Assembly: GCA_024688885.1 (NCBI GenBank)
Contig: JAILDV010000053.1
Location: 36,988 to 100,987, forward strand
Origin: Bacteroidaceae bacterium
GTDB taxonomy: Bacteria > Bacteroidota > Bacteroidia > Bacteroidales > Bacteroidaceae
DNA: 64,000 nucleotides
Direction of reading: 5' to 3'
Shown here: positions 2,316 through 52,449 of the stretch, one piece after another
Layout of the letters: each line of letters begins with the position of its first letter
Numbering within the stretch: the first letter of the stretch is position 1
Program-made: the position numbers and the translations under genes
Notes under the pieces: model-generated
The model's database searches: none
What the model was told of the DNA's origin: nothing
The model's input: the letters and a program-made list of their open reading frames with translations, nothing else

Positions 2316-2349
2316 TACAATATAGTTCTTGATTAGTAAAAATATGCCG

Positions 2350-2357
2350 CAAAGTTA
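2350..2357 (-). promoter_or_regulatory. Bacteroidota-type -7 promoter element for GH95 gene
   Basis: On the minus strand this reads TAACTTTG, matching the Bacteroidota -7 consensus TAnnTTTG, about 35 bp upstream of the GH95 ATG. No convincing TTTG -33 box was found. This suggests GH95 is transcribed separately from the CotH gene upstream of it. Confidence 0.55.
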
Positions 2358-2437
2358 CTCCTTTTTTACCGAAAGAGCATTGCACCATGTACCCTAAAGT
2401 TGCAAATTTGTAACATTCTCTCCTATTTTGTCGCATA

Positions 2438-4765: not shown

Positions 4766-4842
4766 TGATCAGTTCTTGGTATTTCTTTTCTTCTTTATAT
4801 CAATTGTTTTAGGTCTCGTTTTTATGAAACTTGAGTCGATTG

Positions 4843-27484: not shown

Positions 27485-28441
27485 TTGGCTTCTCTCAAAG
27501 AAATAAAAAGTCGCATCGCGTCTGTCCGCAACACACAGAAAATCACCAGTGCCATGCGCATGGTGGCAAGCGCGAAACTCCATCACACACAAGGTATGAC
27601 GGAGGCATTCCTGCGGTATAAGGATGAACTGGAAAAGACAGTTGACAGTTTACAGTTGACAGTTGACAGTTCCATGCAGACAGATGACAGCTCCATGCAG
27701 ACAGATGACCCACAAGGCGCCAGCCAACTGTCAACTGTCAACTGTCAACTGTCAACTCTCCTAATTCCCATTTCTTCCAATAGCGGACTTTGTGGTGCGT
27801 TCAACAGCAACATTGCTAAAGCCACGATGCAACGTGTTCAGGAGTTAGAAGCACAAGGTAGGCAGGTCCAACTGTTGCCCATCGGTAAGAAGATTGCTCA
27901 TGAACTGAAAAAGACGAATAAAGACTTCAGTACAGACTTTGTGGACATGCTCGACAAGATAGAGAAGAGTAATGCCTATACAGATGTGGAGACTTTAGTA
28001 AGATGTGTGAATGGGCTCTACCAACGTGAGACAATTGATGACGTGGAATTCTTGTACCATCATTTCAAATCAATGGGCACACAAGTTATTCAAGTTGACA
28101 GTTTACAGTTGACAACTGACAATTCCATGCGGACTGATGACACACAAGTCGCCAGCCAACTATCAGCTGTCAACTATCAACTGTCAACTTATCTCACCGA
28201 GCCATCCCGCCAAGAACTGCTTGCCTCTCTTTTCCCTCGTCTGCTCAACGCCAAGGTTTATGGCATCATGCTTGATTCTCTCACCAGTGAGCATGCTGCA
28301 CGAATGTTGGCAATGCAAACAGCAGATGACAATGCCAACGACTTGCTCAAAGAACTGACATTACTTTACAACAAGACCCGTCAACAAAGCATCACCAACG
28401 AACTTATCGATATCATGTCGGGAAAAATTGGTGAACACTAA
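27485..28441 (+). CDS. atpG: F1Fo ATP synthase subunit gamma with two in-frame repeat insertions
   Basis: 318 aa central rotor subunit. It starts with TTG at 27485; the reading (M)ASLKEIKSRIASVRNTQKIT is the family N-terminus and no in-frame ATG fits. The conserved SSNSGLCGAFNSNIAK and the C-terminal helix (LTLLYNKTRQQSITNELIDI) are intact. Between ELEK and LLIP, and again after GTQVIQ, the sequence turns into CQLSTVN/SLQLTVD-type peptide encoded by two copies of a hairpin heptad element (27638-27757 and 28092-28190). Both replace or extend surface-loop regions (inference from family layout) and stay in frame. The stop overlaps the convergent GH30 stop by four bases. Confidence 0.93.
   Translation: MASLKEIKSRIASVRNTQKITSAMRMVASAKLHHTQGMTEAFLRYKDELEKTVDSLQLTVDSSMQTDDSSMQTDDPQGASQLSTVNCQLSTLLIPISSNSGLCGAFNSNIAKATMQRVQELEAQGRQVQLLPIGKKIAHELKKTNKDFSTDFVDMLDKIEKSNAYTDVETLVRCVNGLYQRETIDDVEFLYHHFKSMGTQVIQVDSLQLTTDNSMRTDDTQVASQLSAVNYQLSTYLTEPSRQELLASLFPRLLNAKVYGIMLDSLTSEHAARMLAMQTADDNANDLLKELTLLYNKTRQQSITNELIDIMSGKIGEH
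27638..27757 (+). repeat. Hairpin heptad element copy A inside atpG
   Basis: The left arm is (GTTGACA)n with one GTTTACA; the right arm is (AACTGTC)n, its inverted complement over about 32 bp with one mismatch. Between them lies a 21-bp unit in two tandem copies (TCCATGCAGACAGATGAC core), then CCCACAAGGCGCCAGCC. The variant GTTTACA sits where GTTGACA would give an in-frame TGA. Entire element is translated. Confidence 0.85.
28092..28190 (+). repeat. Hairpin heptad element copy B inside atpG
   Basis: Same architecture as copy A with more divergence: left arm AAGTTGACAGTTTACAGTTG, core CCATGCGGACTGATGAC and CACAAGTCGCCAGCC, right arm AACTATCAGCTGTCAACTAT. It has one core unit where copy A has two, and it again carries GTTTACA at the stop-avoiding position. 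Arms remain largely complementary. Confidence 0.85.
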
Positions 28442-31038
28442 TCCTTTACAAGCACTTTCTTCACCTTTTCGCCCTTACGGATGATGATGAATTGCCCCTT
28501 CTGCACATTCGTCATGTTCTTGATTTGCCTACCCTGCAAGTCATAATACTGTTCCACATCCGAACGGGAAGCATCCACCACATCCTCAATGCCTGTTGAA
28601 GAAAGATCCAGAGGAATGAAATCCTCCGTAGAGCCAAGTTGTGCATAGACATCAAAAGGCACCAAGGTTGAAACGGCCGTCTGCCGAACCCAACCCCATT
28701 GACCATCCTTCTGTCCCAAAACGTAATCACCTGCACAAAGCGGTATCTGCACATAGGTTCCTCGGAAGGTAGCTTCCAGAGGACTAGTAGCAAAGGAGAC
28801 CTGATGCATGACAGCTTCTTCACCCACTGTGAAGGTCACATCGCCATTCGCAACAATGAACACAGGCTGATGAGCAGCAATTGTCGTCACCTCTTGCAAC
28901 ATCTGGTCATCGCCAATGGTGTATGCCGTCACACCCTTAGGCACATTCGCCGCAAATGGTAACATCAGCATACGTGCACCTTCCACATGAACCTCCAATG
29001 ATGCATCCTGGGCTGTGAAGGCAGTCGCAGGACGGAAGTCACCACCTGTTGCCGAGAGTTTCAAGATTGGGCAAACTGCACCTTTCACCACATTATCAGC
29101 AGTCAGTGTGCTTTCCTCACCCACATACACCACACGGTTAGTTCCGTCCAGCCATGGCAGTTCCGCAGGCAAGCCCGTCACCCCCGTCAAGTCAAGACTG
29201 GTGCAAGCCTCATCCTCGGTATATTCCAGCACATTGCTGTCATCTGCCACGTAAGCACCACTCAGTTTTGCAGCATAATTGTTTCCATTGTCCAAATAGA
29301 CATCGCCAAACGTGATGGTCAGATGCGATTGGGCATTGTCACAAGTGAAGGAAATCAATCCCATGCAACCATCAGTAAGAGTTGCAGGCGAAAGATCCAA
29401 TACCACATCAAAGTTCTGTGCACGGCTCAAGTCAATACGTTCATATTCATGTTTCTGCACCTTGCCCTCATCATTCACATAGATAAGTGTAGGAGCACCC
29501 ATCGTAAGTGAATTGGTGGAGGTCACCTTGTTGATGTGCATGACCAACCTCGAGAAGCGGTCACTCAGTGCCACATACCCGCTGGCAGCAGTTGTTCGGG
29601 TTGAAATGAGCGGATTAGAGGCATCGAAAGTCTTAGTCTTACCACTCAGTTTGTAGGTGGTACCGAAATTCGTCTTCGTGGTTTGCATATCATCAAGGCG
29701 GTTGAATCGAGTTGTCGAACCAGTCATGTTCGAAGCCTGACGGTCACGCGAGCGCACAAACAGCACCGTGCATACACTTTTGGCAGCGATAGTTGCCACA
29801 GGACGGCACGTCTCCTTCTCCTGATTCAGCACCGTCTTCGAGAAGTTCTTCGTTTTTGCGGTTGTGTAGAGTTCACCCTTCTCCGTATAGAACGGCAAAT
29901 CTACAGTCAGCGTCACCTCTTCATCACCACTGTTCGACATCACAGCCACCACAGTGTCACCCGTCTGCGACAGATATGCCGAACTTTCCAAACTATTGCC
30001 ACTCCATGTGGCATCAATGCGAGTCATGCCCGTTACAAACTTGGCAAAGTGCGCCATGATGTAACCACGTTTCGTGATGACACCATTCGATGTACCACGC
30101 TGTCCATCACCCATCATCGCATAGAAGCGCTTCGATGCATAGTGAATCCATGCATTGAAGTCACCCACCATGCAGTTGTTGATGGCTGAGAAGAAATTGA
30201 AGAAGTCCTTCGAGAAGTCGAAGTTGCGCATGTCACTCTCCTGCTTGTTCTCATTCCAGTTGATGAGGTACTCTGTCATCCACACCTCCTTGCCCTTCTT
30301 CCCATGGTTCTTATATGACGACTGGATGCCACCATACTGGTGTCCGCCATAAATGTCGAAGCATTCGAGCACATCTGTCTTATTCAGCGCATTGGCGTAG
30401 GAGTCACTCACGCCGATGGTCTCAGGAGCCATCACCTTGCAACTGATGCTCTTTCCGTAAGTCTTCACAAACTCAGCCATCTCAGAGGCTGACCACAGGC
30501 ACCCCGCATACGTGGCATCCCAATCGGGCTCGTTCTGAATGGAGATGGCATCCAACTCCACCCCGTTCTGACGCAGATACTTCACATAGTCATCCAGATA
30601 CTTCGCGTAATCAGGCCAATTGGCTTTCTTCAACTTACCCGTGGTGCCATCGCTGTTCTTCGCGTTGCTGGTTCCGTTCGTCTTCCACTCGGCTGGCTGT
30701 CCCCAAGGCGAGGCAAACACGATGAGTCCCATCTGCTTGGCTTTCTTGGCAGTAGCCAACGACTGTCCCCACGCATTCTTTCCGATGGGGATATAGAGTC
30801 GCATGATATTACACCCCACAGTGCTGTTCTTTCCCCACACCTTTTCAATCTCCGTGTTTGACATATGGTTATATGTAAATTGCGGGCTACACACAAATCC
30901 ACCAAAACCAGTGATACGCTGATGCGTCTTCTGAGCATCGAGGTGCACTGTAGCCTTTGTTTGCGCGATTGCCACAGACGAGATGGTCGCAAAAAGGATT
31001 GCCATCATCGTCACGTTTTTCCATTTTCCGTCTATCAT
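28438..31038 (-). CDS. GH30 family secreted xylanase (glucuronoxylanase-like) with C-terminal modules
   Basis: 866 aa from ATG 31038, chosen because the ORF-track start at 31092 is next to the promoter. MIDGKWKNVTMMAILFATISSVAIAQ is a signal peptide. The GH30 barrel and side beta-domain span about 27-420: RITGFGGFVCSP, ISIQNEPDW (acid/base Glu), VWMTEY (nucleophile Glu) and ITKRGYIMAHFAKFV. The KRGY stretch matches the loop that in GH30_8 enzymes contacts the glucuronic acid side chain, so an endo-glucuronoxylanase is likely (inference). Two beta-rich modules follow, then the tail YYDLQGRQI...GQFIIIRKGEKVKKVLVKD. It fits with the GH115 enzymes 20 kb away. Confidence 0.9.
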   Translation of the reverse strand: MIDGKWKNVTMMAILFATISSVAIAQTKATVHLDAQKTHQRITGFGGFVCSPQFTYNHMSNTEIEKVWGKNSTVGCNIMRLYIPIGKNAWGQSLATAKKAKQMGLIVFASPWGQPAEWKTNGTSNAKNSDGTTGKLKKANWPDYAKYLDDYVKYLRQNGVELDAISIQNEPDWDATYAGCLWSASEMAEFVKTYGKSISCKVMAPETIGVSDSYANALNKTDVLECFDIYGGHQYGGIQSSYKNHGKKGKEVWMTEYLINWNENKQESDMRNFDFSKDFFNFFSAINNCMVGDFNAWIHYASKRFYAMMGDGQRGTSNGVITKRGYIMAHFAKFVTGMTRIDATWSGNSLESSAYLSQTGDTVVAVMSNSGDEEVTLTVDLPFYTEKGELYTTAKTKNFSKTVLNQEKETCRPVATIAAKSVCTVLFVRSRDRQASNMTGSTTRFNRLDDMQTTKTNFGTTYKLSGKTKTFDASNPLISTRTTAASGYVALSDRFSRLVMHINKVTSTNSLTMGAPTLIYVNDEGKVQKHEYERIDLSRAQNFDVVLDLSPATLTDGCMGLISFTCDNAQSHLTITFGDVYLDNGNNYAAKLSGAYVADDSNVLEYTEDEACTSLDLTGVTGLPAELPWLDGTNRVVYVGEESTLTADNVVKGAVCPILKLSATGGDFRPATAFTAQDASLEVHVEGARMLMLPFAANVPKGVTAYTIGDDQMLQEVTTIAAHQPVFIVANGDVTFTVGEEAVMHQVSFATSPLEATFRGTYVQIPLCAGDYVLGQKDGQWGWVRQTAVSTLVPFDVYAQLGSTEDFIPLDLSSTGIEDVVDASRSDVEQYYDLQGRQIKNMTNVQKGQFIIIRKGEKVKKVLVKD

Positions 31039-31104
31039 GCTATTATTCAAGTTTTTGGTAATACACTCTTCGTGTTGGTTAAATATGTACAATTATTTGC
31101 GCGA

Positions 31105-35734: not shown

Positions 35735-38700
35735 ATGAAAAAAATCATTCTCACATCCCTCTTCGTCATGCTTGCCGCAGCAGGTTTCGCACAGCGCTTC
35801 ACTGACAAGCTTGACCGTGGACTCGTAGCGGTACCAAGTGGCAATGGAAATTTCGTCAGTTGGCGTGTACTTGGCGAAGAATACTATGATGTGACCTACA
35901 ACCTCTATTGTAATGGTACGAAGATAGCCGAGAACCTTCAGGCATCTAACTACACGCACATTTCAGGCAATGCTTCCAGCAGTTATCAGGTGGCGCCTGT
36001 GGTGCGTGGTGTCGAACAGACAAAGAGCAAGTCTGTGACACGATGGAACAACGGTCACTTCGACATTCCTGTTGCCAAAGTATTGGATCGCAATGGGAAC
36101 GATGTGACTTCCCAATACATCATCAACGACATCTCCTTAGGTGACGTGGATGGTGACGGCATGGTGGAGTTTATGGTGAAGCGCAACTACAAAGGCGACA
36201 TCCTCAATGCCGCCAACACTACCAAGTTCCACCACTACGAATGCTACAAGCTTGACGGTACACGCCTGTGGTGGATAGACCTTGGCCCCAACCTCATGGC
36301 TGGTCCCGATGAACAGTGGGATCTCGTCAGCTACGACTGGGACATGGATGGAAAAGCAGAGTGTCTCATGCGTGGTGCTGACAATATGATTATCCATGCT
36401 GGCGATGGCACAGTCATCAAGGTGGGTAACATGAACTATGTGGCTCCACGTGACGAATACACGCGCAATGGTGCTGAATACCTGCTCTACATGAACGGAG
36501 CCACGGCTGTGCCTTACGATTATCAATCGCAATCAGCGACATACACCCCGATGACATACCCTCTTCCCCGTTTCGAAAGCGATGAAAGTGACTATGCCAC
36601 CGTTTGGGGTAAAAACGACACAGGACACCGTTCGTCCAAGCACTATTTCGGTGCCCCTTATCTTGATGGGCGCAAACCCAGCATCTTCCTTGGACGTGGC
36701 TGTTACAGCCAGCACAAGATGTGTGCGTTGGACGTTGATCCGCAAACTCACCAGCTGAATCAACTCTGGCGTTGGGATGCCACTTCGGGACCTTGGTTTG
36801 GCAATGGTTTCCACAACTTCACCATTGGAGATGTTGACTGGGACGGACGCGATGAAATCATCTTCGGTTCCATGATGATTGACGACAACGGAAAGGGACT
36901 CTGCACCACAGGGCTCGGACATGGCGATGCACAACATTGTGCAGACCTTGACCCTTACCGCAAATACGCAGAGCAGTTCATCTGTAACGAGACACAGCCT
37001 GCCTGCACCTACTACAATGCCACCACTGGCGAAATCTACTACCGTTTGAAATCCACATCAGATGATGGACGTGCGCTATGCGCCAACTTCTCCAATGACT
37101 TTGTGGGCAGCATAGGCAGAAGCACCCAGACAGGCATTGTTTCCACCGTAAAGGATTTGGTGGTGGCAAATGCTCCCGGCGGCACCAACGATGCACTCTT
37201 CTGGCCACACCTTAACCAGCGCATCTATTGGGACGGTGACCTCTGCGATGAAGTGTATGATTCTCCCGGTAGTGCCAATGAAGGACGCGCTGCAGCCATC
37301 TACAAGTATCCATCAGGGCGTCTTTTCAACTCCGACGACTGCCTGACCATCAACGGCACGAAAAACAATGCATGTGCCATTGCCGACATCTTTGGAGACT
37401 GGCGTGAAGAAGTGGTGACGCGTACATCTGACAACAAGAACATCCGCATCTTCACCACGCCCCATGCCACCACTTACCGCATCCCTACCCTCTGGTCTGA
37501 CCACCAGTACCGCAATGCCATGGTGACACAGCCTATCGGATACAACCAACCTCCTCACAAGAGTTACTTCCTTGGTGAACTGGAGGGTATCACTCAGGCT
37601 CCTCCCACCAACACCATGACAGGACGCACCGAGGTGAAAAATGGCGGTACCATCTCCACTACGAGCGACCATCTGATTGTATGTGAGACAAACAACACTA
37701 AAGTGAGCATCCAGGACGGTGCCGCACCCTATATCGTGACCTTCAATGTGCCATCACATGTACAAGGCAATGCAACCAGCGGCACTACCGCAAAGCCTGC
37801 CCCCACTTATCAATACTTCACCTGCGAGGTGACAGGTGGTGGTCTGGCTGGTGATGCCCGTCTCGTAAAACAAGGTGATGGTATCCTCACCTTGCCGAAC
37901 GTGACCATGAAGCACACCGGCAACACTGACGTATGGGCAGGTACTGTCAACTTCAACGGCACATTTCAGAACTCAGCTCTTTGGCTCAACCGCTTTGTAG
38001 AACTGAATTCCAATGGTGGCAAATTCCTCGGTGGCATCAAGGCAGACTACGCCTCCACCATCCGTCCGGGTGGTGAGAACACCATGGGTACCATCACCAC
38101 AACCACCTACACGATGGGCTTTGGTTCACGATTGGCCCTTGATCTCTATTCCGACGGGGTTAAGGCAGACCAAGTGATTGCCGACAAACTTGTCATTGAG
38201 ACCAAACTCAACGAGAAAGTCTGGATGGACTATGGCCCACGCTATCTGCAGCCCGTCATTGAGGTGGTGGAACACTGCAAGGATGGTGCCAAGACCCTCG
38301 AACCTGGCAGCTACATCATCGGTAAGATTGGTGCGGTGTCTGGTTCTCTCAACGACATCAAGATTGAAGGTGTCACCAACCATCGCGCCGTTCTCTCTCT
38401 CAATGCTCAAAACCAGCTCATCCTCACCATCAGTGCCGTGCGTGCTGCAAGCGAGATCGTGTGGACAGGTGCAAACTCTTCCACTTGGGACTTTGCCAAG
38501 ACTGAGAACTTCTACGTAGCAGACGACCAAGCCAAGGCTGCTGACATCTTTGTGAAGGGCGACATTGTCAACTTCACCGATGAAGCCTCCAAGACATCCA
38601 TCGCCATCACTGAAAATCTCGATCCCAAGACGTTTAAGGTAAATGCCTCCAAGAACTACACCATCTCGGGCAATGGAGCCATCACCTCTGGTGCTTTGGT

Positions 38701-40411
38701 GAAAGAAGGCACAGGCACACTGACAATCTCCACTGAAAACTCCTATATGGACGGCAATGCGCTGAAAGGGGGCACAGTCGTAGTTTCCTCGCTTTCCAAT
38801 GAAAACAAAGCGGCAGGCAACTTAGGTGCCGTAACCACTTCTGCAGACCTATTCACCATGGAGAATGGAGCCATGATTCAGACAGCAGCCACGGTCACCA
38901 ATGGTTCGCCCATCAAGTTTGTGGGTGAAAAAGGAGGCGTCATCAGTGCTGATGCCAATAAGGACTTCATCCAAAACAAGGCTCTCTCTGGCACGCTCCT
39001 CACCAAGAAGGGGTCAGGATGGCTCAAGACCTACACCAGCGGTGCCAACCTTAATAGAGTCATCATTGTTGGTGGAGCCATTGACAACTTCTCCGGCAAT
39101 GCCGCCAAAGTCGTCGAGTTCCAAGGTGGAACGCTGATTGATGAGGTAGGCACCAACAATGAACTCAACATACCAAAGGATAAGAAAGGTGCATGGAACA
39201 CCGCCAACCGTTCCACCTACACCAATAAGGTGACAGGAGAAGGCTCCCTCGACATTACTTGTGCAGGAGAGCAGGGAAATGGCTGGGTGGCTACACGCAC
39301 CGCGCTCCAGCTCAACCTCTCTGCCTTCAAAGGCACCATTGTACCACACGCTGCCATCGTTGCTGACAAACGATTCACACTCGACACCAGCAATGGCTCA
39401 GAGAACTGCACCTTCAACATTCCTGAAAATGTCATTGTACAGAACTCAGGTAAGACCTTGCGCATCGGTAAACTGACTGGCAAGGGCACATTGGGTGGTT
39501 TCTGTTCATTCCAGCAGAATGCCACTGTAAGAGCCAACACATGGCAGGTAGGCAATGACAATAACTTCAAGTTCGAAGGCATCGTCACCAGCAACGATAA
39601 CTTCACCAAGATGGGCTCAGGAGAGATGACCGTCACCGGTGCTTGGAACAGCACAGGAGCAGTGAACATCTCTGCCGGCAGCATTCGTTTGGGCACAGGT
39701 GGCTCACTCGGTACAGGCTCACTGACAGTTTCCGAGAACGCCGCACTGACAGGTGTGAGCGACAGCAAGTTGGCACTGACCAACAGCAGCATCACCATCA
39801 ACGGCACTGTCCACCCAGGAGAGTCAGCTACTTCCACTTTAGGCAACATCAATTTGGGTGGCAAGAATGTCACCTTGAGCAAGACAGCTAAAGTGGTTAT
39901 CGGCATCCGCAAGAGTGCCTCTGAAAATTCCATCAACAACTCATACATCAAGGGCATCGGCACCCTGAAGTTGGCAGCAGGCACTACCATTGGTGCTGTC
40001 ATCAGCAAAAACAACTTAGGGAAACTCACCACCGATGAGGCAGTGGCAGACTCCTTCTATGTTTGGACAGACGTGAAGAATGTCAACATCGCAGGTGAGC
40101 TCAACTTCGACCTGCCTGAACTGCCCGTCTATAACTACTGGGACACCAGCCGCATCAGCGAAGGTATCCTTTATGTGAGATGCAATGCCGCCAAGTATCA
40201 GGAATACCTCACAGGCATCAGTGCCATTGATGCAGGAGAAACCGTTGTGGTGGATGTCATCAATACAGGCAGTGTCACAGTCAAGACATTCACCTGCCAG
40301 ATGGGCGATGTGTCCGACACCTTCGCCAAAACACCCCTTCCAAAGGGAATCTACCTGTTACGCATCAAAAGCGAGGCAGGTAAGAAAGGTACGCTCAAAC
40401 TCATGAAATAA
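35735..40411 (+). CDS. PL11 rhamnogalacturonan lyase fused to autotransporter-type beta-strand repeats
   Basis: 1558 aa, far longer than a usual PL11 (about 600). Signal peptide MKKIILTSLFVMLAAAGFA. PL11 beta-propeller about 25-625: LDRGLVAVPSGNGNFVSWR, DISLGDVDGDGMVEFMVKR, DWDMDGKAECLMRGAD, DVDWDGRDEIIFGSM, the repeated D-x-D-G loops that bind calcium. From about 640 on there is a right-handed-helix-like region with passenger strand repeats (WTGANSSTWD, LVKEGTGTLTISTENSY, FTKMGSGEMTVTGAW, GTGSLTVSENAAL). The end, PLPKGIYLLRIKSEAGKKGTLKLMK, is a type IX-like sorting tail. It cleaves the rhamnogalacturonan I backbone, probably at the cell surface. fhs follows after 15 bp. Confidence 0.9.
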   Translation: MKKIILTSLFVMLAAAGFAQRFTDKLDRGLVAVPSGNGNFVSWRVLGEEYYDVTYNLYCNGTKIAENLQASNYTHISGNASSSYQVAPVVRGVEQTKSKSVTRWNNGHFDIPVAKVLDRNGNDVTSQYIINDISLGDVDGDGMVEFMVKRNYKGDILNAANTTKFHHYECYKLDGTRLWWIDLGPNLMAGPDEQWDLVSYDWDMDGKAECLMRGADNMIIHAGDGTVIKVGNMNYVAPRDEYTRNGAEYLLYMNGATAVPYDYQSQSATYTPMTYPLPRFESDESDYATVWGKNDTGHRSSKHYFGAPYLDGRKPSIFLGRGCYSQHKMCALDVDPQTHQLNQLWRWDATSGPWFGNGFHNFTIGDVDWDGRDEIIFGSMMIDDNGKGLCTTGLGHGDAQHCADLDPYRKYAEQFICNETQPACTYYNATTGEIYYRLKSTSDDGRALCANFSNDFVGSIGRSTQTGIVSTVKDLVVANAPGGTNDALFWPHLNQRIYWDGDLCDEVYDSPGSANEGRAAAIYKYPSGRLFNSDDCLTINGTKNNACAIADIFGDWREEVVTRTSDNKNIRIFTTPHATTYRIPTLWSDHQYRNAMVTQPIGYNQPPHKSYFLGELEGITQAPPTNTMTGRTEVKNGGTISTTSDHLIVCETNNTKVSIQDGAAPYIVTFNVPSHVQGNATSGTTAKPAPTYQYFTCEVTGGGLAGDARLVKQGDGILTLPNVTMKHTGNTDVWAGTVNFNGTFQNSALWLNRFVELNSNGGKFLGGIKADYASTIRPGGENTMGTITTTTYTMGFGSRLALDLYSDGVKADQVIADKLVIETKLNEKVWMDYGPRYLQPVIEVVEHCKDGAKTLEPGSYIIGKIGAVSGSLNDIKIEGVTNHRAVLSLNAQNQLILTISAVRAASEIVWTGANSSTWDFAKTENFYVADDQAKAADIFVKGDIVNFTDEASKTSIAITENLDPKTFKVNASKNYTISGNGAITSGALVKEGTGTLTISTENSYMDGNALKGGTVVVSSLSNENKAAGNLGAVTTSADLFTMENGAMIQTAATVTNGSPIKFVGEKGGVISADANKDFIQNKALSGTLLTKKGSGWLKTYTSGANLNRVIIVGGAIDNFSGNAAKVVEFQGGTLIDEVGTNNELNIPKDKKGAWNTANRSTYTNKVTGEGSLDITCAGEQGNGWVATRTALQLNLSAFKGTIVPHAAIVADKRFTLDTSNGSENCTFNIPENVIVQNSGKTLRIGKLTGKGTLGGFCSFQQNATVRANTWQVGNDNNFKFEGIVTSNDNFTKMGSGEMTVTGAWNSTGAVNISAGSIRLGTGGSLGTGSLTVSENAALTGVSDSKLALTNSSITINGTVHPGESATSTLGNINLGGKNVTLSKTAKVVIGIRKSASENSINNSYIKGIGTLKLAAGTTIGAVISKNNLGKLTTDEAVADSFYVWTDVKNVNIAGELNFDLPELPVYNYWDTSRISEGILYVRCNAAKYQEYLTGISAIDAGETVVVDVINTGSVTVKTFTCQMGDVSDTFAKTPLPKGIYLLRIKSEAGKKGTLKLMK

Positions 40412-42304: not shown

Positions 42305-45300
42305 TTACTTGATTGCAACACCAGCAGCGTTGTACTTCACACCGTTCTTCACGATAACGATCTGACCATTGATGAAGTACTTGCCATCCTTAACAGCGTC
42401 TTCTGCAGTCTCAACGCCTTCGATAGCAGTTGCAGTTGCCTTGTGCTTGTAGATGCCATAAACCTTCATGTCGAATGGATAGCCACCAGGCCAGAGTGTC
42501 AGAACACAAATCTGTGGGAGAACGTCGTCCTTGATAGCGCACTTCGCATCATCAGCAAATACATACTTATATTCAGTAGCACCTTCTGGAATTTCCACAT
42601 TGTCTGTGCCACCCTGTGCCCAGAATGCGATGTTCCAACCCTTAGGAGCAGGCTGAGCGAACTTCACTGTTACATAGTCGCAGTCCTTCACGTCGATGTC
42701 ATACATCTTGAACGCAACCTGAAGGTCAGCAGAAGCTGTGTAAGTATTGAAGTCTGCACCTTCCTCAACTGCTGTACGAGCAAATGTGTCAAGATCCTTA
42801 CCCTGATCCTGTGCAATCTCTTCGAAGTCTGCATAGTCTGGATCAGTTTCAGGCTTTGGCAGATACTCTTCTTCTCCAGACTCAACAGCCTTGAAGGTAG
42901 CAGTTACCGTCACAGCAGCAGCAGGCATCGTGAAGGTGTTGTCATCAGCCACCTCTACAGGAGTTTCGCCAGCAGCGACAGAGAGTGCGTCAAGCTCATA
43001 GCCCTCAGCAGGAGAGATGGTGAGAGTCACCTTGGCACCCTCAGCAGCCTCAGTCACATTTGCAGAAACAGAACCGTTCTCAGCCTCAGTAATGGTGATA
43101 GCGTAAGTAGGAACATATTCTTCAAACTTAACGTTTCTGAACTTATAAGTGATAGGATCTGCATTATTAGAAAGATCCACGCAGTACTGGTCAACCTGAC
43201 GGCTTGAATAAGGAGCACCAGCGTTTGACTTAACATTCTCTGTGTTCAGGATGCGCTCGATGGTGATCCACTTGTCTTGTTCAGTGATTTCAAGTTTAGC
43301 ACTTGCACTTGGTGCAGCATTAGCACCCCAACCCTTACCGGTAGCGGTAGCCTGATAGCTTTCAGGAGCAGAAACAACCTGATCAGCCATAACCTCGAAG
43401 GTCATCTTAGTAGTCTTGCCTACCCATTCGTCTGGAATCTGAATCCAAATCTGGCTGTTGTAAGGCTGGCTTGGGCTAGCGTTAGACACAACCTGTACAT
43501 AGCCACCTTCAGCTACGTAATTAGCCAATGGGTGTGGAGTGTCAGTGTCAGTATAAGTAGCAGTTGGATCCAAATAGTCCTTTGCACGGATTTCCTGAGC
43601 ATAGTACCAGTCAGCCTTGTACTCTTCAACCTGAACGTCATCGATGTAGAAGTTGTTAGAAGTACCATTCTTCTCGCTGAGGTTGAACACAACGCTCACG
43701 AAGTTGGTTGGATGACCGTTACCAGCTTCAACCTTCAGAGACACCTTCTTCCATTCAGTGGTTACATCTATTTGACCAAAGCCAAGATAACCATTTGAAG
43801 CATTGTTATAATCCCAATCAACACCGTGACCCTGAGTAGCAATGGTCTGAGCGCGGTCAGCTCTGATGCGGAATGAGAGAGCAAGAGGAGTAGATTCCTC
43901 AGTCATTGGCTCGTCACTTACCTTCATCCAGAACTGAGACCAATAATCCTCACCAGCATTGTTGTCAGTAGTAACTACGATGCAACCATTGCCAGTTGTC
44001 TTATCTTCCAGTTCGAAACGAGGAATTTCACGGATAAGCTTACCCTGTTCGTCCTTTTCAATGCGACCACCGTCCTCTTTACCCTTGTAGTCAACCACGC
44101 GGAAGTTGTCTGCAACGAACCATGCGTCTGGCGTGATAGGTGTAGCAGACTCGACAAAGGTAGCGCTAACAGTAACAGGGAATGCAGGCATAGTGAACAC
44201 ACCCTCAGCAGACACCTCTACATCCTTGTCCTCAGTACCATCATTGTAAGTAACATAGAAAGCTTTCAGTTCATAAGTTACAACAGGAGTAGCCTCCAGA
44301 GTAACCTTGGCACCCTCAGCAGCCTTCTTAAGGCCATCCTTCACAGCTACAGTACCGTTCTCGATACCATCAGCAATAGTGATGTCATACTTAGCAGCTG
44401 GGAGGTAAGCCTCAACTGTGGCGAGCTTCATCTCCTCAACGTTAACCGTTGTGTTCCATGAAGAAGCCTTAATGGCGTTCAGGTGAACAAAACCCTTGTC
44501 AGCCTTGAACTTAGCGAGGTCGTAAACGATAACACCATTCTCATTGCTTACAACATAGTCAGCATCGTTAGCATAAACAAGGATGTTATTGGCATCATTT
44601 TGGTTGAAGAACAAACGTGGTTCACCAGATGCTGCAACGATTGTGAGGTAATCCCAGTCACCGAGGTCAGCAAACTGTGTTGCTGTGCCTGCGTTGATAT
44701 CGCTGTTACCATATACACAACCTGTTTCTTTATTCAAATCATAAGCACAATTAGGATTGTCAGGATCTGCGATAGTTGCCTCGGCATCGTAGCCTGTCCA
44801 CTTGTGGAACATGTCAGCAGCAAGGTCTGCAACCTCAGCTTTTACAGGGATGTAAGGCTTAACTGTAGCAAGCTTCATCTCTGCAACATTTGCTTTTGTG
44901 TTCCATGAAGAAGCCTTGATAGAGTTCAGGTGAACGAAACCTACAGCTGCCTTGATAGCAGCAAGATTGTAAACGATGACACCATCCTCGTTGCTCACCA
45001 CATAGTTCGCATCGTTGGTGTTCACTTGAATGCGGTCGCTGCCACCCTTGCTGTTGAGGAACATACGGGGCTGGTCGTCAGTATTCAAAACAACTGTGAG
45101 ATAATCCCATGCAGAGAGGTCTGCATACTCGAATTCTGTCACGTTCGTGTTACCGTATGGGCAGTCAGTCTCAGCGTCCAGATTGATCGCGCCACCATTT
45201 TCATCGGGATCTGCCACTGTAGCTTCAGCATCGAAACCAGTCCACTTGTGGAACATGTCAATAGCCAAGTCAGCAACTTTCGCCTCTGTGCCTTGTTCTT

Positions 45301-46522
45301 CTCCACCTTCTTTCTCCTTGAAGGTAGCAGTCACAGTCACGGCAGCAGCAGGCATGGTGAAGGTATTGTCGTTAGCCACTTCTACAGCAGTTTCACCAGC
45401 AACAACAGAGAGTGCGTCAAGCTCATAGCCCTCAGCAGGAGTGATGGTGAGAGTCACCTTGGCACCCTCAGCAGCCTTCTTAAGGCCATCCTTCACAGCT
45501 ACAGTACCGTTCTCGATACCAGCAGCAATAGTGATGTCATACTTAGTAGCTGGGATGTAAGGCTCAACAGTAGCGAGCTTCATTTCCTCAACAACAGCTT
45601 TTGTGTTCCATGAAGATGCCTTAATGGCATTCAGGTGAACAAAGCCGCGAGCTTCCTTAATGGCTGCGAGATTAATGACATACACGCCATCACCCTTGTT
45701 CTCAACGTAAGGATCAGAAGCATTTGCAGTTGCGACAGTGAGACGTCCGCCATCCACACTACTGTCATTGAAGAACAAACGGGGGTTGTCAGAAGTCACA
45801 ACGAGTGTGAGATAATCCCATGCAGTAAGGTCTGCAAAATCTTGTCCTATCACACCTGTGTTACCATAAGGGCAATCGGTCTCAGTGTTAAGTTTAACGC
45901 CTCCATCGGGAGCATCTGGGTCTGCGATAGCAGCATCAGCCTCAACACCAACCCATCTGTGATACATGTCTGCAGACAGATCTGCAACCTCAGCTTTTAC
46001 AGGGATGTAAGGAGCGCCCTTGGCAAGCTTCATTGCTGAAACAACAGCTTTTGTGTTCCATGAAGATGCCTTAATGGCATTCAGGTGAACAAAACTGCGA
46101 GCTTCCTTGATGGCTGCGAGATTAATGACATACACGCCATCACCCTTGTTCTCAACGTAAGGATCAGAAGCATTTGCAGTTGCGACAGTGAGACGACCGC
46201 CACCCACACTACTGTCGTTGAAGAACAAACGGGGGTTGTCAGAAGTCACAACGAGTGTGAGATAATCCCATGCAGTAAGGTCTGCAAAATCTTGTCCTAT
46301 CACACCTGTGTTACCGTAAGGGCAATCGGTCTCAGTGTTAAGTTTAACGCCTCCATCGGGAGCATCTGGGTCTGCGATAGCAGCATCAGCCTCAACACCA
46401 ACCCATCTGTGATACATGTCTGCAGACAGATCCGCCACTTCCGTGGGTTTCTGTCCATACGCCACACCTGCCACCATCAGTAACAGGAGCGTAAGAAAAG
46501 ATTGTGTAATCTTTTTCAACAT
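42305..46522 (-). CDS. Giant secreted multi-module protein, putative glycan binding (surface protein 1)
   Basis: 1405 aa. Signal peptide MLKKITQSFLTLLLLMVAGVAYG. Four copies of a ~150-residue module A (VADLSADMYHRWVGVEADA ... FVHLNAIKASSWNTKAVV), the first two about 98% identical in DNA. Copies of an InlB-like B-repeat follow (GYELDALSVVAGETAVEVA, FTMPAAAVTVTATFKE), then two carbohydrate-binding-like beta-sandwiches (QFWMKVSDEP...FYIDDVQVEEY; SQIWIQIPDEWVGKTTKMTF) and a last beta-module. It ends with YFINGQIVIVKNGVKYNAAG. No catalytic domain recognised. It may act as a cell-surface glycan binder, but no SusC/D is near. The function is inference; the modular layout is directly visible. Confidence 0.8.
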   Translation of the reverse strand: MLKKITQSFLTLLLLMVAGVAYGQKPTEVADLSADMYHRWVGVEADAAIADPDAPDGGVKLNTETDCPYGNTGVIGQDFADLTAWDYLTLVVTSDNPRLFFNDSSVGGGRLTVATANASDPYVENKGDGVYVINLAAIKEARSFVHLNAIKASSWNTKAVVSAMKLAKGAPYIPVKAEVADLSADMYHRWVGVEADAAIADPDAPDGGVKLNTETDCPYGNTGVIGQDFADLTAWDYLTLVVTSDNPRLFFNDSSVDGGRLTVATANASDPYVENKGDGVYVINLAAIKEARGFVHLNAIKASSWNTKAVVEEMKLATVEPYIPATKYDITIAAGIENGTVAVKDGLKKAAEGAKVTLTITPAEGYELDALSVVAGETAVEVANDNTFTMPAAAVTVTATFKEKEGGEEQGTEAKVADLAIDMFHKWTGFDAEATVADPDENGGAINLDAETDCPYGNTNVTEFEYADLSAWDYLTVVLNTDDQPRMFLNSKGGSDRIQVNTNDANYVVSNEDGVIVYNLAAIKAAVGFVHLNSIKASSWNTKANVAEMKLATVKPYIPVKAEVADLAADMFHKWTGYDAEATIADPDNPNCAYDLNKETGCVYGNSDINAGTATQFADLGDWDYLTIVAASGEPRLFFNQNDANNILVYANDADYVVSNENGVIVYDLAKFKADKGFVHLNAIKASSWNTTVNVEEMKLATVEAYLPAAKYDITIADGIENGTVAVKDGLKKAAEGAKVTLEATPVVTYELKAFYVTYNDGTEDKDVEVSAEGVFTMPAFPVTVSATFVESATPITPDAWFVADNFRVVDYKGKEDGGRIEKDEQGKLIREIPRFELEDKTTGNGCIVVTTDNNAGEDYWSQFWMKVSDEPMTEESTPLALSFRIRADRAQTIATQGHGVDWDYNNASNGYLGFGQIDVTTEWKKVSLKVEAGNGHPTNFVSVVFNLSEKNGTSNNFYIDDVQVEEYKADWYYAQEIRAKDYLDPTATYTDTDTPHPLANYVAEGGYVQVVSNASPSQPYNSQIWIQIPDEWVGKTTKMTFEVMADQVVSAPESYQATATGKGWGANAAPSASAKLEITEQDKWITIERILNTENVKSNAGAPYSSRQVDQYCVDLSNNADPITYKFRNVKFEEYVPTYAITITEAENGSVSANVTEAAEGAKVTLTISPAEGYELDALSVAAGETPVEVADDNTFTMPAAAVTVTATFKAVESGEEEYLPKPETDPDYADFEEIAQDQGKDLDTFARTAVEEGADFNTYTASADLQVAFKMYDIDVKDCDYVTVKFAQPAPKGWNIAFWAQGGTDNVEIPEGATEYKYVFADDAKCAIKDDVLPQICVLTLWPGGYPFDMKVYGIYKHKATATAIEGVETAEDAVKDGKYFINGQIVIVKNGVKYNAAGVAIK
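45591..46430 (-). repeat. 450-bp-period internal duplication in surface protein 1
   Basis: About 390 bp at 45591-45980 recur at 46041-46430 with only a handful of differences (e.g. GCCGCGAG/ACTGCGAG, ATTG/GTTG). They encode modules A1 and A2. The period is 150 codons, so the frame is kept. Recent tandem duplication or gene conversion. Confidence 0.85.
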
Positions 46523-47709: not shown

Positions 47710-50700
47710 TTACTTGATTGCAACACCTGCTGCGTTGTACTTCACACCGTTCTTCACGATAACGATCTGACCATTGATGAAGTACTTGCCATCCTTAACA
47801 GCGTCTTCTGCAGTCTCAAGACCTTCGATAGCTGTTGGGATTGGGAGAGCTGGCTTTTCACCTGCATAACCAAGCTTAATCTCTGTAACAGTAGTGTTAG
47901 CCCAGTTAGCGCCCTTGATAGCGTGGAGGTGAGCGAAGCCGTATTCAGCTACGATAGCAGCAATGTCGATGACGTAAGTCTTGGAACCGTCGCCATTGTC
48001 AACAACAGTCTCATACTTATCCTTATCGCGTGGAACTTCTGCAAATACAGTACCTTCATTTTCGATGCGGTTGAAGAGGAGACGAGGCTCACCCTCAGTA
48101 GCTGTCAACTCGATAGTGTTGTAAGCAGAGAGGTCTGCGAATCTGTCATGGTTAACAGTGCTCAAACCATAAGGCTGACCTGTAGATGTACCAATGTTGT
48201 AATCACAGTTAGAAGCTTCAATAGGCTCTGCAGTTTCATCAGCAGCATTCCAATGGAAGAACATCTCCTTAGTCAAGTCGGTGTAAGCGAGTGCAGGAGC
48301 ATCCTTCTTTAGACCTGCGATAGCGTCAGTGATAGCCTGAGCAGCAGCAGTGAGAGACTCAGCAGTAGCCTCTGCATTGGCGAGTTCAGCCTTGGCAGCA
48401 GCGATAGCGTCTGTCAGAGCCTGGAAGCTCTCCTCAGTGTACTGACCATCCTCGTTGCTGTAGCTTCTACCCTCGTGTGCAGCCTCGTTGGCAGCGAGAG
48501 TCTCAGCCCAAAGAGTAGTCTCGTCAGCTGTAGCAGTAGCAGCCTCGATGGCAGCCTTGTCGTCGTTGACAATCTGAACCTTGATGTTAGAGAATCCATA
48601 AGTGGTAGCATCAGCAACTGCGAGGTTGAATGCAATAGTGCGCATATCATCTGGGGCAGTCAAGTACTCCTGGAAGTGAACAGCGTCTACTGATGGGTCT
48701 GTCTTAACTGAGCTTATGTTAGCCTTCCACTCACCAGGTTCTCCGTGAGCTGCAATAGCAAGTGTATTGATATGCTCTGCATAGAGGTCAAACTCAAGGT
48801 TGAACTTCTTGCCCTTTGGCAGAACGTATGGCAGACGAACAAAGAACTGAGCATCGTAGTCATTGCCACCAACTGAGCCGTCTTCATTAGTTGGACGTGC
48901 AACAGTTTCGATGCCAATTTCACCATATTGATTCTTCTCAGCCAGAAGCATCTCTGGATCCTCAACATCGTTGTTCTTCAGAATGAACTCGCTCATGTCG
49001 TCAGTAGAGAGGTCACCATTCTTAAGGATGTTTTCAGACCAGTCAAGAGTAGTTGGATCAACATACTCATAGATTGGGTATTCAGTAGCGGAGAGGTAGT
49101 CAGGAGCAACTTCTTTGCCTTCTGTATCCTTGATTGGGAGCGTACCAGAAGGAACCTGAACTCTGATATTATCGATGAATACGATAGCATTTGGCTGACC
49201 AGACTGTGCCATATCAAACACGTCCCAACGGAGACCGTTGTCACGGCTAATCTTATATTCGTCAGAATAGTGCAGCCAAGTATTTACTTCACCTTCCTTC
49301 ACTGTCATAGCCTTTGTGCCACCTGATGCATAAGAACCAACGCCGCCATCCCATGACTGAGTGCCGAAGTTTGCTGTAGCGTTAACCATGTAGTCGAACT
49401 CAATTCTATACTTTGTACCGTTTGGCAACTGATATGGGAAACGGATCTCAAACTGGCTGTCCCAGTTAGCAGAACCACCTTGTGTGCGGAATTCAATACC
49501 GTACTTGCTATCTTTACCAGCACCTTCTACGATACGAGCTCTGTGAGTGTCATCTGCTGCGATAACATTCTCCTTAGAGAGGAAGTAGAATATCTCATCA
49601 TCAGCGCCAGTGTAACCAGCTTCGAAGTCCTGAAGAGGAATCAGGTCAACCCAGTCAAGAACTGGAGCCTCTGTCCAAGTAGCAGAAACTTCGTCAATCA
49701 GATAAGTGATAGGATTAGCATCCTGTGAAAGGTCGATTGAGTAGCATGTAGGAACACCCTTGTCATATTCAGAGATATCCAATGTCAGTTCAACGGGTGT
49801 CCATTCACCAACCGTGAACTTAGCAGCAGGAGCACCGGCCATCCAGTTAGCGCCATCATATGAACCGTGGAAACCGCCACCAGCCTGAATCTCAGTGCCA
49901 GCAGCAAGAGTTTCTGTTGCAAGAGCCTTGATCTTGAACGACAGCTTCACTGTCTCGTTCTTCTTCAAAGCCTTAGATGGAGCAACGTCAGCAATCTGGA
50001 AGAAGAACTGAGTCTCGTAAGTCTGTTCCTGCTTACCAGCAGCTGTCACTTCGAAGTAACCGCCTTCTTCGCCACCAGTACCGAAGCTATATGTTGGAGC
50101 ATTGTTTGTATCTGGTTGCTTTTCACCTTCAACGAATGGAGTAACCTTCACACGATAAGCCATTGTTTCAGTCCAAGCCTCTTCTGCGTCTTCAAATTTC
50201 ACGTTTCTGAACTTGTAAGTGATAGCTTCTTTGTCACCACTTGCCTCAGACAGATCCAGACAATACTGGTCAGCCTGCAAGTCTTTCCAAGTACCAGTTG
50301 ATTTAACGCCATTAGTCTTGAGAACACGTTCAACTGTAGTCCATTCACCAACAGTGAATTCGACACCGTTGCCAGGACCAGGGTTACAACCCCAACCGTT
50401 ACCAGTTGCTGTTGCCTGGAAGCTCTCTGGACACTTGATAGCCTTAGAAGCCTGAACTTCCATGGTCATCTTAGTGCTTGTTCCAACATACTTCTCAGGA
50501 ATAGCAATCCAAAGCTGGCTGTTGTAAGTCTGACCTGCATTAGCATTAGAGATAACCTCTACATAACCACCCTCTGCATCAGAAACGAAGCGAGCAGCTG
50601 GATGTGGATCTTGGCCATCAGAGTATGAAGCAGCTGGATCCTTATAGTCCTTAGCGTGGAACTCATTGTTGAGATACCACTCAGAACCTCTTACAATCTG

Positions 50701-52449
50701 AACATCGTCGAAGTAGAATGTTCTATCAGCATCTGAAGCAGCCAGGTTGAAGCAAAGGTCTGTAAAGCCAGCTCTCGCATCATCAGCTATACAAACAAAT
50801 GTTACAGTCTGCCATTCTTTTGTTACATTCAGAGTGCCAAAGCCGTCATTGGACACGTGCTGGAAAGCTTTATGAGTCTGAGATCCAGCGGAATATTCGC
50901 CATCAGCCTTCACACGCATTGTAACTTTGAATCCTGTTCCAGAAGCAAAGCCTCCCTTATCATAAACAGCTGTCAATTGAGCCTTATCTTTACCAATATA
51001 GGTAGGCTCAACATACTCAGCACCTCTAATCCAGAACTGAGCATTAGTTGCACTGCTATTTTTGCCTGCAGTCGCTACAATACAGCCATTCGTAACATCA
51101 TCAGGATCTGCTCCCCATACTGCAAAAGTCTTTTCCGTGGACGTTGCAACAGTAGAAGCCTTATCCCTGAAGCAGAAGTCAATTTCATTGAACCACTTGT
51201 CCTTTTCAGGAGCAGTAGGAGCAACAGCTGGCTTAACCAGAGTAAGTTTGAAGTTGTCAACAGTGAACCAACGAGCAGCCATTGGAGCTTCGAAGCTCTT
51301 TACACCAATGCGGATTTTGCCATCAGTCACTTCAATTTCGTCAGTAACATAAGGAACGCGAGTTTCAGAATTCACATCTACAAGCTTAGAAACAGTAGTT
51401 TCACCAACTGTAGCATAAACACCAACTGTAGGCTTGAACTCAGTGTAATCACCACCTTCATTGTTCAAAGAGTTGTACATTTCTGCACTAACAGTGTAAG
51501 TTCCATTTGGAAGACCGGTGATTTCCTGCCAATAATCGAAGGAAGCCTCTGCGCGGTTAGAAGCATTACCTGCCCAATATTCGAAATCACCACCATGATC
51601 AGGACCATTACCGCCAAGAGGCTTTTCACAAGTCCAACCATCCTTAGCACCGCAATCGAAGTTAGCAATAACACGAGTGAAATCAGAACCAGCAGCTGTC
51701 TGAGTCTTTGCAAGCGCTGGAAGAGCAGCTTCCACCTTCTGAGCATCAGCAAGTGCATCAGCAGATTTATCAGGATCGATACCAGCAATAGCAGCATCGT
51801 ACTCTGCTGATGTTGCACCCTTCTTCTTCATAGCTTCACCTTCTGCGAGGAGAGCCTTCAGAGCTGGTACATAAGTGATCGATACAGGAACAAAAGCAAA
51901 GTAAACAGCTTCTTCCTTATTAGCTGTACCACCATCTGCACCCTTGTAAAGACCTGTACCAATGTTCTTCAGAGAGAAACCTTTTCCCTCTACAAACTGA
52001 ACATCCCATACTGCACCATAGTCGATGTCTTGACCCAGCTTCTTGGCTGTGATACCCAAGTTGAAGCAGCACCAACCGCCCTTATCCTGAGAGTTCAGAT
52101 ACTTACCTCCCCAATCTGAAGTTGGAACTGGCGTTCCATTAGGAGCCACAAGATGGAGAAGATAATAACCATGGACAGACTCGTCTTCGTTTTCAGCCAA
52201 ACTTTCGAGCTGCCACGTGTAACCAGAATTTGTTGTAACAAACGCGCTACCATACGCGTCGAAAGCCAAATTCTGGTTGTTTGAGCCAAACAGTGCCTTT
52301 TCAGCAGCCTTGTCAACAATCGCAAATGTCTTGCCGTCAAGAGCTGCAACACTGGTAAACTCATCACCAAGTTGGACAGTTGGTGTAATAGCAGCATTTG
52401 CCACCATCGCAACTACCATTGTCAGGAGAAATGTAAATAATTTTCTCAT
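47710..52449 (-). CDS. Giant secreted multi-module protein, putative glycan binding (surface protein 2)
   Basis: 1579 aa. Signal peptide MRKLFTFLLTMVVAMVANA. N-terminal about 25-195 is a beta-rich, ricin-type-like domain (FAIVDKAAEKALFGSNNQN, GGWCCFNLGITAKKLGQ). A helical linker leads to five or six beta-sandwich carbohydrate-binding-like modules, each with a Q-(F/L)-(F/W)-I/V strand (NAQFWIRGAEY, SQLWIAIPEKYVG, TQFFFQIADVAP, SQFEIRFPYQLPNG, AQFFVRLPYVLPKG). A FIVAR-like helix pair (YTEESFQALTDAIAAAKAEL, about 1400) and one module A follow. The last ~40 residues are nearly identical to surface protein 1 (YFINGQIVIVKNGVKYNAAG). No catalytic motif seen. Probably exported glycan-binding; separate promoter. 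Confidence 0.78.
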   Translation of the reverse strand: MRKLFTFLLTMVVAMVANAAITPTVQLGDEFTSVAALDGKTFAIVDKAAEKALFGSNNQNLAFDAYGSAFVTTNSGYTWQLESLAENEDESVHGYYLLHLVAPNGTPVPTSDWGGKYLNSQDKGGWCCFNLGITAKKLGQDIDYGAVWDVQFVEGKGFSLKNIGTGLYKGADGGTANKEEAVYFAFVPVSITYVPALKALLAEGEAMKKKGATSAEYDAAIAGIDPDKSADALADAQKVEAALPALAKTQTAAGSDFTRVIANFDCGAKDGWTCEKPLGGNGPDHGGDFEYWAGNASNRAEASFDYWQEITGLPNGTYTVSAEMYNSLNNEGGDYTEFKPTVGVYATVGETTVSKLVDVNSETRVPYVTDEIEVTDGKIRIGVKSFEAPMAARWFTVDNFKLTLVKPAVAPTAPEKDKWFNEIDFCFRDKASTVATSTEKTFAVWGADPDDVTNGCIVATAGKNSSATNAQFWIRGAEYVEPTYIGKDKAQLTAVYDKGGFASGTGFKVTMRVKADGEYSAGSQTHKAFQHVSNDGFGTLNVTKEWQTVTFVCIADDARAGFTDLCFNLAASDADRTFYFDDVQIVRGSEWYLNNEFHAKDYKDPAASYSDGQDPHPAARFVSDAEGGYVEVISNANAGQTYNSQLWIAIPEKYVGTSTKMTMEVQASKAIKCPESFQATATGNGWGCNPGPGNGVEFTVGEWTTVERVLKTNGVKSTGTWKDLQADQYCLDLSEASGDKEAITYKFRNVKFEDAEEAWTETMAYRVKVTPFVEGEKQPDTNNAPTYSFGTGGEEGGYFEVTAAGKQEQTYETQFFFQIADVAPSKALKKNETVKLSFKIKALATETLAAGTEIQAGGGFHGSYDGANWMAGAPAAKFTVGEWTPVELTLDISEYDKGVPTCYSIDLSQDANPITYLIDEVSATWTEAPVLDWVDLIPLQDFEAGYTGADDEIFYFLSKENVIAADDTHRARIVEGAGKDSKYGIEFRTQGGSANWDSQFEIRFPYQLPNGTKYRIEFDYMVNATANFGTQSWDGGVGSYASGGTKAMTVKEGEVNTWLHYSDEYKISRDNGLRWDVFDMAQSGQPNAIVFIDNIRVQVPSGTLPIKDTEGKEVAPDYLSATEYPIYEYVDPTTLDWSENILKNGDLSTDDMSEFILKNNDVEDPEMLLAEKNQYGEIGIETVARPTNEDGSVGGNDYDAQFFVRLPYVLPKGKKFNLEFDLYAEHINTLAIAAHGEPGEWKANISSVKTDPSVDAVHFQEYLTAPDDMRTIAFNLAVADATTYGFSNIKVQIVNDDKAAIEAATATADETTLWAETLAANEAAHEGRSYSNEDGQYTEESFQALTDAIAAAKAELANAEATAESLTAAAQAITDAIAGLKKDAPALAYTDLTKEMFFHWNAADETAEPIEASNCDYNIGTSTGQPYGLSTVNHDRFADLSAYNTIELTATEGEPRLLFNRIENEGTVFAEVPRDKDKYETVVDNGDGSKTYVIDIAAIVAEYGFAHLHAIKGANWANTTVTEIKLGYAGEKPALPIPTAIEGLETAEDAVKDGKYFINGQIVIVKNGVKYNAAGVAIK

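Follow-up and report, generated by a model that had tools for sequence, protein, structure and literature searches.

A PL11 rhamnogalacturonan lyase with probable accessory beta-helix modules and a type IX-like tail in Bacteroidaceae

Why should a rhamnogalacturonan lyase continue for about 900 residues beyond its catalytic domain? This question is raised by an open reading frame in a 64,000-nucleotide stretch of DNA (the window) from a species of Bacteroidaceae/Prevotellaceae that lives uncultured in gut or rumen. The initial annotation suggested that the extension might project the enzyme from the cell surface on a beta-helix stalk. The intact frame encodes, in order, a signal peptide, a PL11 lyase (residues 22-618), approximately 860 residues of predicted beta-helix and a type IX-like tail, with the following features:

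35735-40411, + strand: rhamnogalacturonan lyase fusion ORF; ATG start, 1558 aa, without internal stop
35735-35797, + strand: Sec-type signal peptide MKKIILTSLFVMLAAAGFAQ-R, read from the sequence; lipobox cysteine absent
35801-36046, + strand: RGI_lyase N-terminal beta-sheet domain of PL11, residues 23-104 (PF18370, E 2.2e-27)
36065-37579, + strand: PL11 beta-propeller catalytic domain, residues 111-615 (PF21348, RGL11_C, E 1.2e-99)
37610-38446, + strand: predicted beta-helix module A, residues 626-904 (AlphaFold model; occurrence in all close relatives)
37862-37948, + strand: PATR / TIGR02601 repeat within module A, residues 710-738 (profile matches)
38447-40183, + strand: predicted beta-helix module B, residues 905-1483 (AlphaFold model; profile B)
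38696-38785, + strand: PATR repeat within module B, residues 988-1017 (25.4 bits)
40184-40408, + strand: T9SS type A-like C-terminal sorting domain, residues 1484-1558 (TIGR04183 score, weak fold matches)

Module B starts near VWTGANSSTWDFAKTENF and ends at YNYWDTSRISEGILYV. Among 86 full-length relatives, at least 97% share A19-Q20-R21, the end of the signal peptide.

The catalytic part ends where the initial annotation had placed it, near residue 625: the RGL11_C match extends to residue 615, and PDB sequence matches (YesW, YesX and 4cag) stop at residue 629. Based on its domains, with PF18370 and PF21348 far above cut-off, and on the propeller fold of its model, the protein is a predicted PL11 rhamnogalacturonan lyase. 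An AlphaFold model of residues 22-905 (75 sequences, pLDDT 92.5, pTM 0.91) resembles YesX, YesW and 4cag with TM-scores by target length of 0.86-0.88. These solved enzymes (YesW and YesX, 2z8r, 2zux and 2zuy; 4cag from B. licheniformis) share the fold and most aligned ligand-contact positions with the window protein but are about 600 aa long and lack an extension. For the comparison of active sites, YesW numbering was transferred through sequence alignments, and the ligand-contact residues of YesW were those attributed to Ochiai et al. N152, D153, R452, N532, K535 and Y595 are unchanged in the window protein and its orthologues, and the window protein also retains G533, T534 and the H363, H399, D401 and E422 positions. 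In contrast, D172 is replaced by Asn (residue 151 of the window protein) and N592 by Pro (residue 600). Position 592 is Asn in 22 of 23 canonical enzymes, whereas Pro, Cys or Ser is found in nearly all of the window clade. In the alignment with YesX, the window protein is also missing the exo-type loop PPGNDGMSY. The window clade forms a branch separate from canonical Bacteroidota PL11, and the altered 172 and 592 positions suggest that its specificity may differ. In a second helix-bearing clade, divAB, all 22 sequences carry Gly or Ala for K535, Gln for E422 and Phe or Tyr for D153, and with the loss of these residues these proteins may act on another substrate or have no lyase activity. The divAB members, PL11-like proteins of about 1500 aa that carry the helix, are L193-L195, L228-L235, L277-L283, L285, L286, L288 and L289.

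The region behind the lyase does contain the autotransporter-type repeats that had been described. PATR matches three stretches of the protein (Pfam, E 1e-8, 35.4 bits, cut-off 27), as does the TIGR02601 beta strand repeat (NCBIfam, E 4e-6, 26.4 bits, cut-off 19.85), and this is the only protein of the source genome with a PATR match at E <=0.001. The beta-helix fold that had been anticipated is also recovered by structure prediction: in an AlphaFold model of residues 605-1558 (82 sequences, mean pLDDT 91.5, pTM 0.72), a short-stranded all-beta solenoid is followed by a small C-terminal beta domain. The roughly 900 repeat residues are thus present, but rather than a single stalk they comprise module A (626-904), module B (905-1483) and a 75-residue tail. 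Given the pTM of 0.91 for the 22-905 model, as compared with 0.72 for the model of module A, module B and tail, we read PL11 and module A as one rigid unit in the predicted structure.

The closest solved fold to the helix model is 7jvi (Foldseek, E 2.2e-5, TM-score by target 0.60), followed by Ssp 8e7f. The former is CapCBM89, a crystallised xylan-binding beta-helix on CapGH10 from a capybara-gut Bacteroidaceae MAG, in which the binding region was located by Y62A and E82A (PMC8810776). Like the window helix, CBM89 is a beta-helix accessory module attached to a plant-wall enzyme; CBM89, for its part, precedes the catalytic domain of a GH10 enzyme and has xylan as its ligand. The likeness is one of predicted fold only, and beta-helices readily match one another. 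No match to 7jvi was obtained with the helix-region profile A1 at E up to 10, which leaves CBM89 membership unsupported by sequence. Since the matches of this profile among PDB sequences are weak and limited to autotransporter proteases, such membership is not claimed.

Relatives of the window protein have residues 1 to approximately 905 in common at roughly 40-51% identity, and module A is found in every close relative. These include a minimal one of 939 aa (L196), in which PL11 and module A are followed by a short tail without module B. Module B is exchangeable. In L182-L192 and L197-L199, its position is occupied by modules of other kinds, and among the proteins sampled, profile B also matches five that are about 1100-1340 aa long and have pectate lyase-type N-termini (L273-L276 and L284). 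The PelZ-like assignment of these N-termini is based on PDB 9buj for L273 and on the NCBIfam PelZ model for L273, L276 and L284; L274 and L275 align to L273. As in the window group, a module B relative is combined with short or T9SS-like tails, but the catalytic domain is different, TSP3 and fn3 linkers form the junction before the helix, and module A is absent. At L274, a PL11 ORF (1-1791) lies directly upstream of the PelZ-like pectate lyase ORF (1798-5208), the product of which carries TSP3, fn3, the PATR helix and a short tail.

The description of the C-terminus as type IX-like also holds. The window tail scores 19.9 bits against TIGR04183 (match at 1522-1558), below the cut-off of 23, whereas orthologue tails reach 23.6 and 33.7 bits. 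By Foldseek, the C-terminal domain resembles the RemA-CTD (8gl6_D) with a probability of 0.99 at a weak E of 0.47, and the T9SS CTDs 8gl6_D, 8glk_D and 8gl8_D (CTDs of RemA, NucA and RemZ being among the matches) are found with probabilities of 0.84-0.99 at weak E values of 0.5-1.5. SprA is encoded in the source genome (2646 bits, G000:C21) and in 11 of 11 other genus genomes checked, and all 12 contain between 5 and 11 TIGR04183 matches.

The interpretation preferred here, to which we assign a probability of roughly 60%, is that of a T9SS-sorted RG-I lyase whose beta-helix modules are accessory and probably serve to bind substrate as well as to space the enzyme. The Sec signal would carry the lyase to the periplasm, and the C-terminal domain would then direct its passage to the cell exterior via the SprA-type translocon. 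The PL11 propeller would cut RG-I, as suggested by its fold and by the ligand-contact positions, most of which are kept. Both helices would bind sugar: module A as a predicted rigid attachment of the propeller, and module B as a separate, exchangeable helix that would hold the enzyme at pectic or other wall substrate and also set it away from the membrane.

In the plain stalk first suggested, modules A and B would only project the lyase from the surface. In its favour, the enzyme and the sorting tail are separated by a long stretch of predicted beta-helix, the repeats are of passenger type (PATR, TIGR02601), autotransporter passengers are among the fold matches, and a stalk geometry is plausible. 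As a full account, this is nonetheless rather unlikely. In the model, module A and the lyase pack into a single rigid body, L196 keeps module A and a tail without module B, and module B is swapped for modules of another kind and recurs on PelZ-like pectate lyases. In addition, the best solved fold is a CBM. Because module A is constant with one enzyme and module B is portable among pectinases, accessory and probably binding roles fit better than a stalk, and accessory substrate binding has, from the sequence comparisons and models, no lower likelihood than projection alone.

For PATR-type autotransporters, a folding or export aid has been proposed for the helix repeat, and a helix that chiefly assists folding and export of this large protein would agree with the PATR and TIGR02601 matches and with the resemblance to the Ssp autotransporter 8e7f, in sequence and in fold, around the module A repeat (E 2e-6). 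We consider this improbable. The C-terminus is a small beta domain with no Pfam or NCBIfam match to the translocator barrel of type V autotransporters, export would follow a T9SS-like route, PATR matches only a small fraction of the helix, and module B can be missing, as in L196. The PATR-type passengers Ssp 8e7f, fusolisin 8axg and antigen 43 share TIGR02601/PATR repeats and/or the helix fold with the window protein, which differs from them in its missing autotransporter barrel, its T9SS-like or, in relatives, dockerin-like tail and its propeller catalytic domain. The PL1, PL9, GH28 and PL6 families are beta-helices, but that module A or B is a second catalytic domain of one of these pectinase types is very improbable: searches of Pfam, NCBIfam and PDB sequences gave no match to enzymes of this kind, for which reason this candidate was rejected, and the sole such enzyme among the 50 Foldseek matches listed is the PL6 enzyme 7o7a (E 0.74).

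The fusion itself is genuine. A search of named genomes returned 265 relatives from rumen and gut Bacteroidales MAGs, and most of the 80 that were kept cover nearly the whole length; one of them (L008, RUG204) is 98% identical across all 1558 residues. By our own count from the genus-wide match listing, 40 of 45 genus genomes hold a copy, 98-45% identical and free of internal stops, that includes the helix region in whole or for the most part. The helix region alone has matches in 105 of 301 family-sample genomes (12 of 30 genera). Relative to five relatives, dN/dS is 0.04-0.12 in PL11, 0.09-0.14 in modules A and B and 0.14-0.23 in the tail, so the helix part is under purifying selection at a dN/dS of about 0.1. 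A frameshift or assembly error joining two genes is ruled out by this conservation in frame within the genus, by the 98% identical copy and by purifying selection across the junction, and nothing in the window gene speaks for one. Such breaks do occur elsewhere: two MAGs carry the fusion gene as a pair of neighbouring frames (L025:1545-6209 and L046:2811-7415), the result of sequencing error or decay.

Whether the fusion is uncommon in PL11, as had been implied, depends on the clade. It is absent from the canonical PL11 enzymes sampled and the rule in this Bacteroidaceae clade. Across a phylum sample, PL11 is above cut-off in 25 of 396 genomes. Most of these frames are about 620-720 aa long and score 560-838 bits, far above the 338 bits of the window copy. 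In a 92-row PL11 tree, with PL11 and helix-module labels set by our own profile thresholds, the window clade (41 rows, SH-aLRT 99) and divAB (22 rows, support 100) both stand apart from canonical PL11, in which profile searches for modules A and B found none. The tree is unrooted and compatible with either one or two origins of the helix fusion.

The tail is exchanged as well. After residue ~1484, orthologues end in a long T9SS-type tail (39), a short tail of the pattern YDLxGRxV...GIYIxxGKKVxxK (37) or a dockerin-like pair (9). On the tree, for which the tail type of six rows was set by visual inspection and a single truncated row was left out, at least 10 changes of tail type are needed while the body stays. 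The two short tails that were scanned have no Pfam or NCBIfam match, and the T9SS label for the short type is therefore one of resemblance. The dockerin-like pair occurs at the C-termini of L024, L027, L028, L031, L034, L038, L065, L074 and L110, with Dockerin_1 above cut-off in L028 and L027; the paralogues L191 and L192 also close with such a pair. Four genomes of the genus in which copies have a dockerin tail (G037, G042, G014 and G025) all encode SprA and contain 16-27 dockerin matches, as compared with 0-7 in the other eight. Cohesins are present in 5 of the 12 genus genomes checked and are in tandem in G037 and G014, where multi-cohesin proteins are encoded at L210:5843-7216, L213:74-1420 and L214:3697-5010. 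In G037, L212:1564-2217 joins one cohesin to a short T9SS-like tail. No cohesins were found in the dockerin-rich G042 and G025, and cohesin docking is therefore not general. In the source genome, which has no match to the cohesin family PF00963, a 223-aa ORF (L222:659-1327, G000:C14) closes with a dockerin pair, and its preceding part is cohesin-like by eye. Dockerins and cohesins have been reported in rumen Bacteroidetes bins (PMC6071333), and none were found in another rumen Bacteroidetes genome paper (PMC5831590).

The combination of dockerin-tailed copies, SprA and multi-cohesin proteins in two genomes raises the idea that T9SS bacteria might place pectinases on surface cohesins. Extended further, this would have sister species display one enzyme body differently by virtue of its last 60-80 residues, most through a T9SS sorting domain and some through a dockerin-like tail, with module B founding a family of pectin-binding beta-helix CBMs, a speculative scheme that we hold to be doubtful. 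Among the open-licence papers retrieved on PL11, TIGR02601-type repeats and T9SS, no title or abstract about this architecture was found. Beta-helix repeats behind carbohydrate-active enzymes are readily written off as passenger or filler. With module A predicted to be rigidly fused, module B portable over two pectinase classes and a CBM as the nearest fold, a large unassigned part of gut pectinases can now be tested for a role in binding. The exchange of T9SS, short and dockerin-like tails while the orthologous body stays the same is also a natural experiment on how Bacteroidota sort and dock their surface enzymes.

Three further genes of the window, all on the - strand, are of note. At 28438-31092, a GH30-like protein with matches just under the Pfam cut-offs has a short YYDLQGRQ-type tail at its end. 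For a 1579-aa protein at 47710-52449, NCBIfam gave no match and Pfam none above cut-off, and at 42305-46522 a 1405-aa protein has three stretches of the InlB B-repeat type (Flg_new_2, E 4.5e-36).
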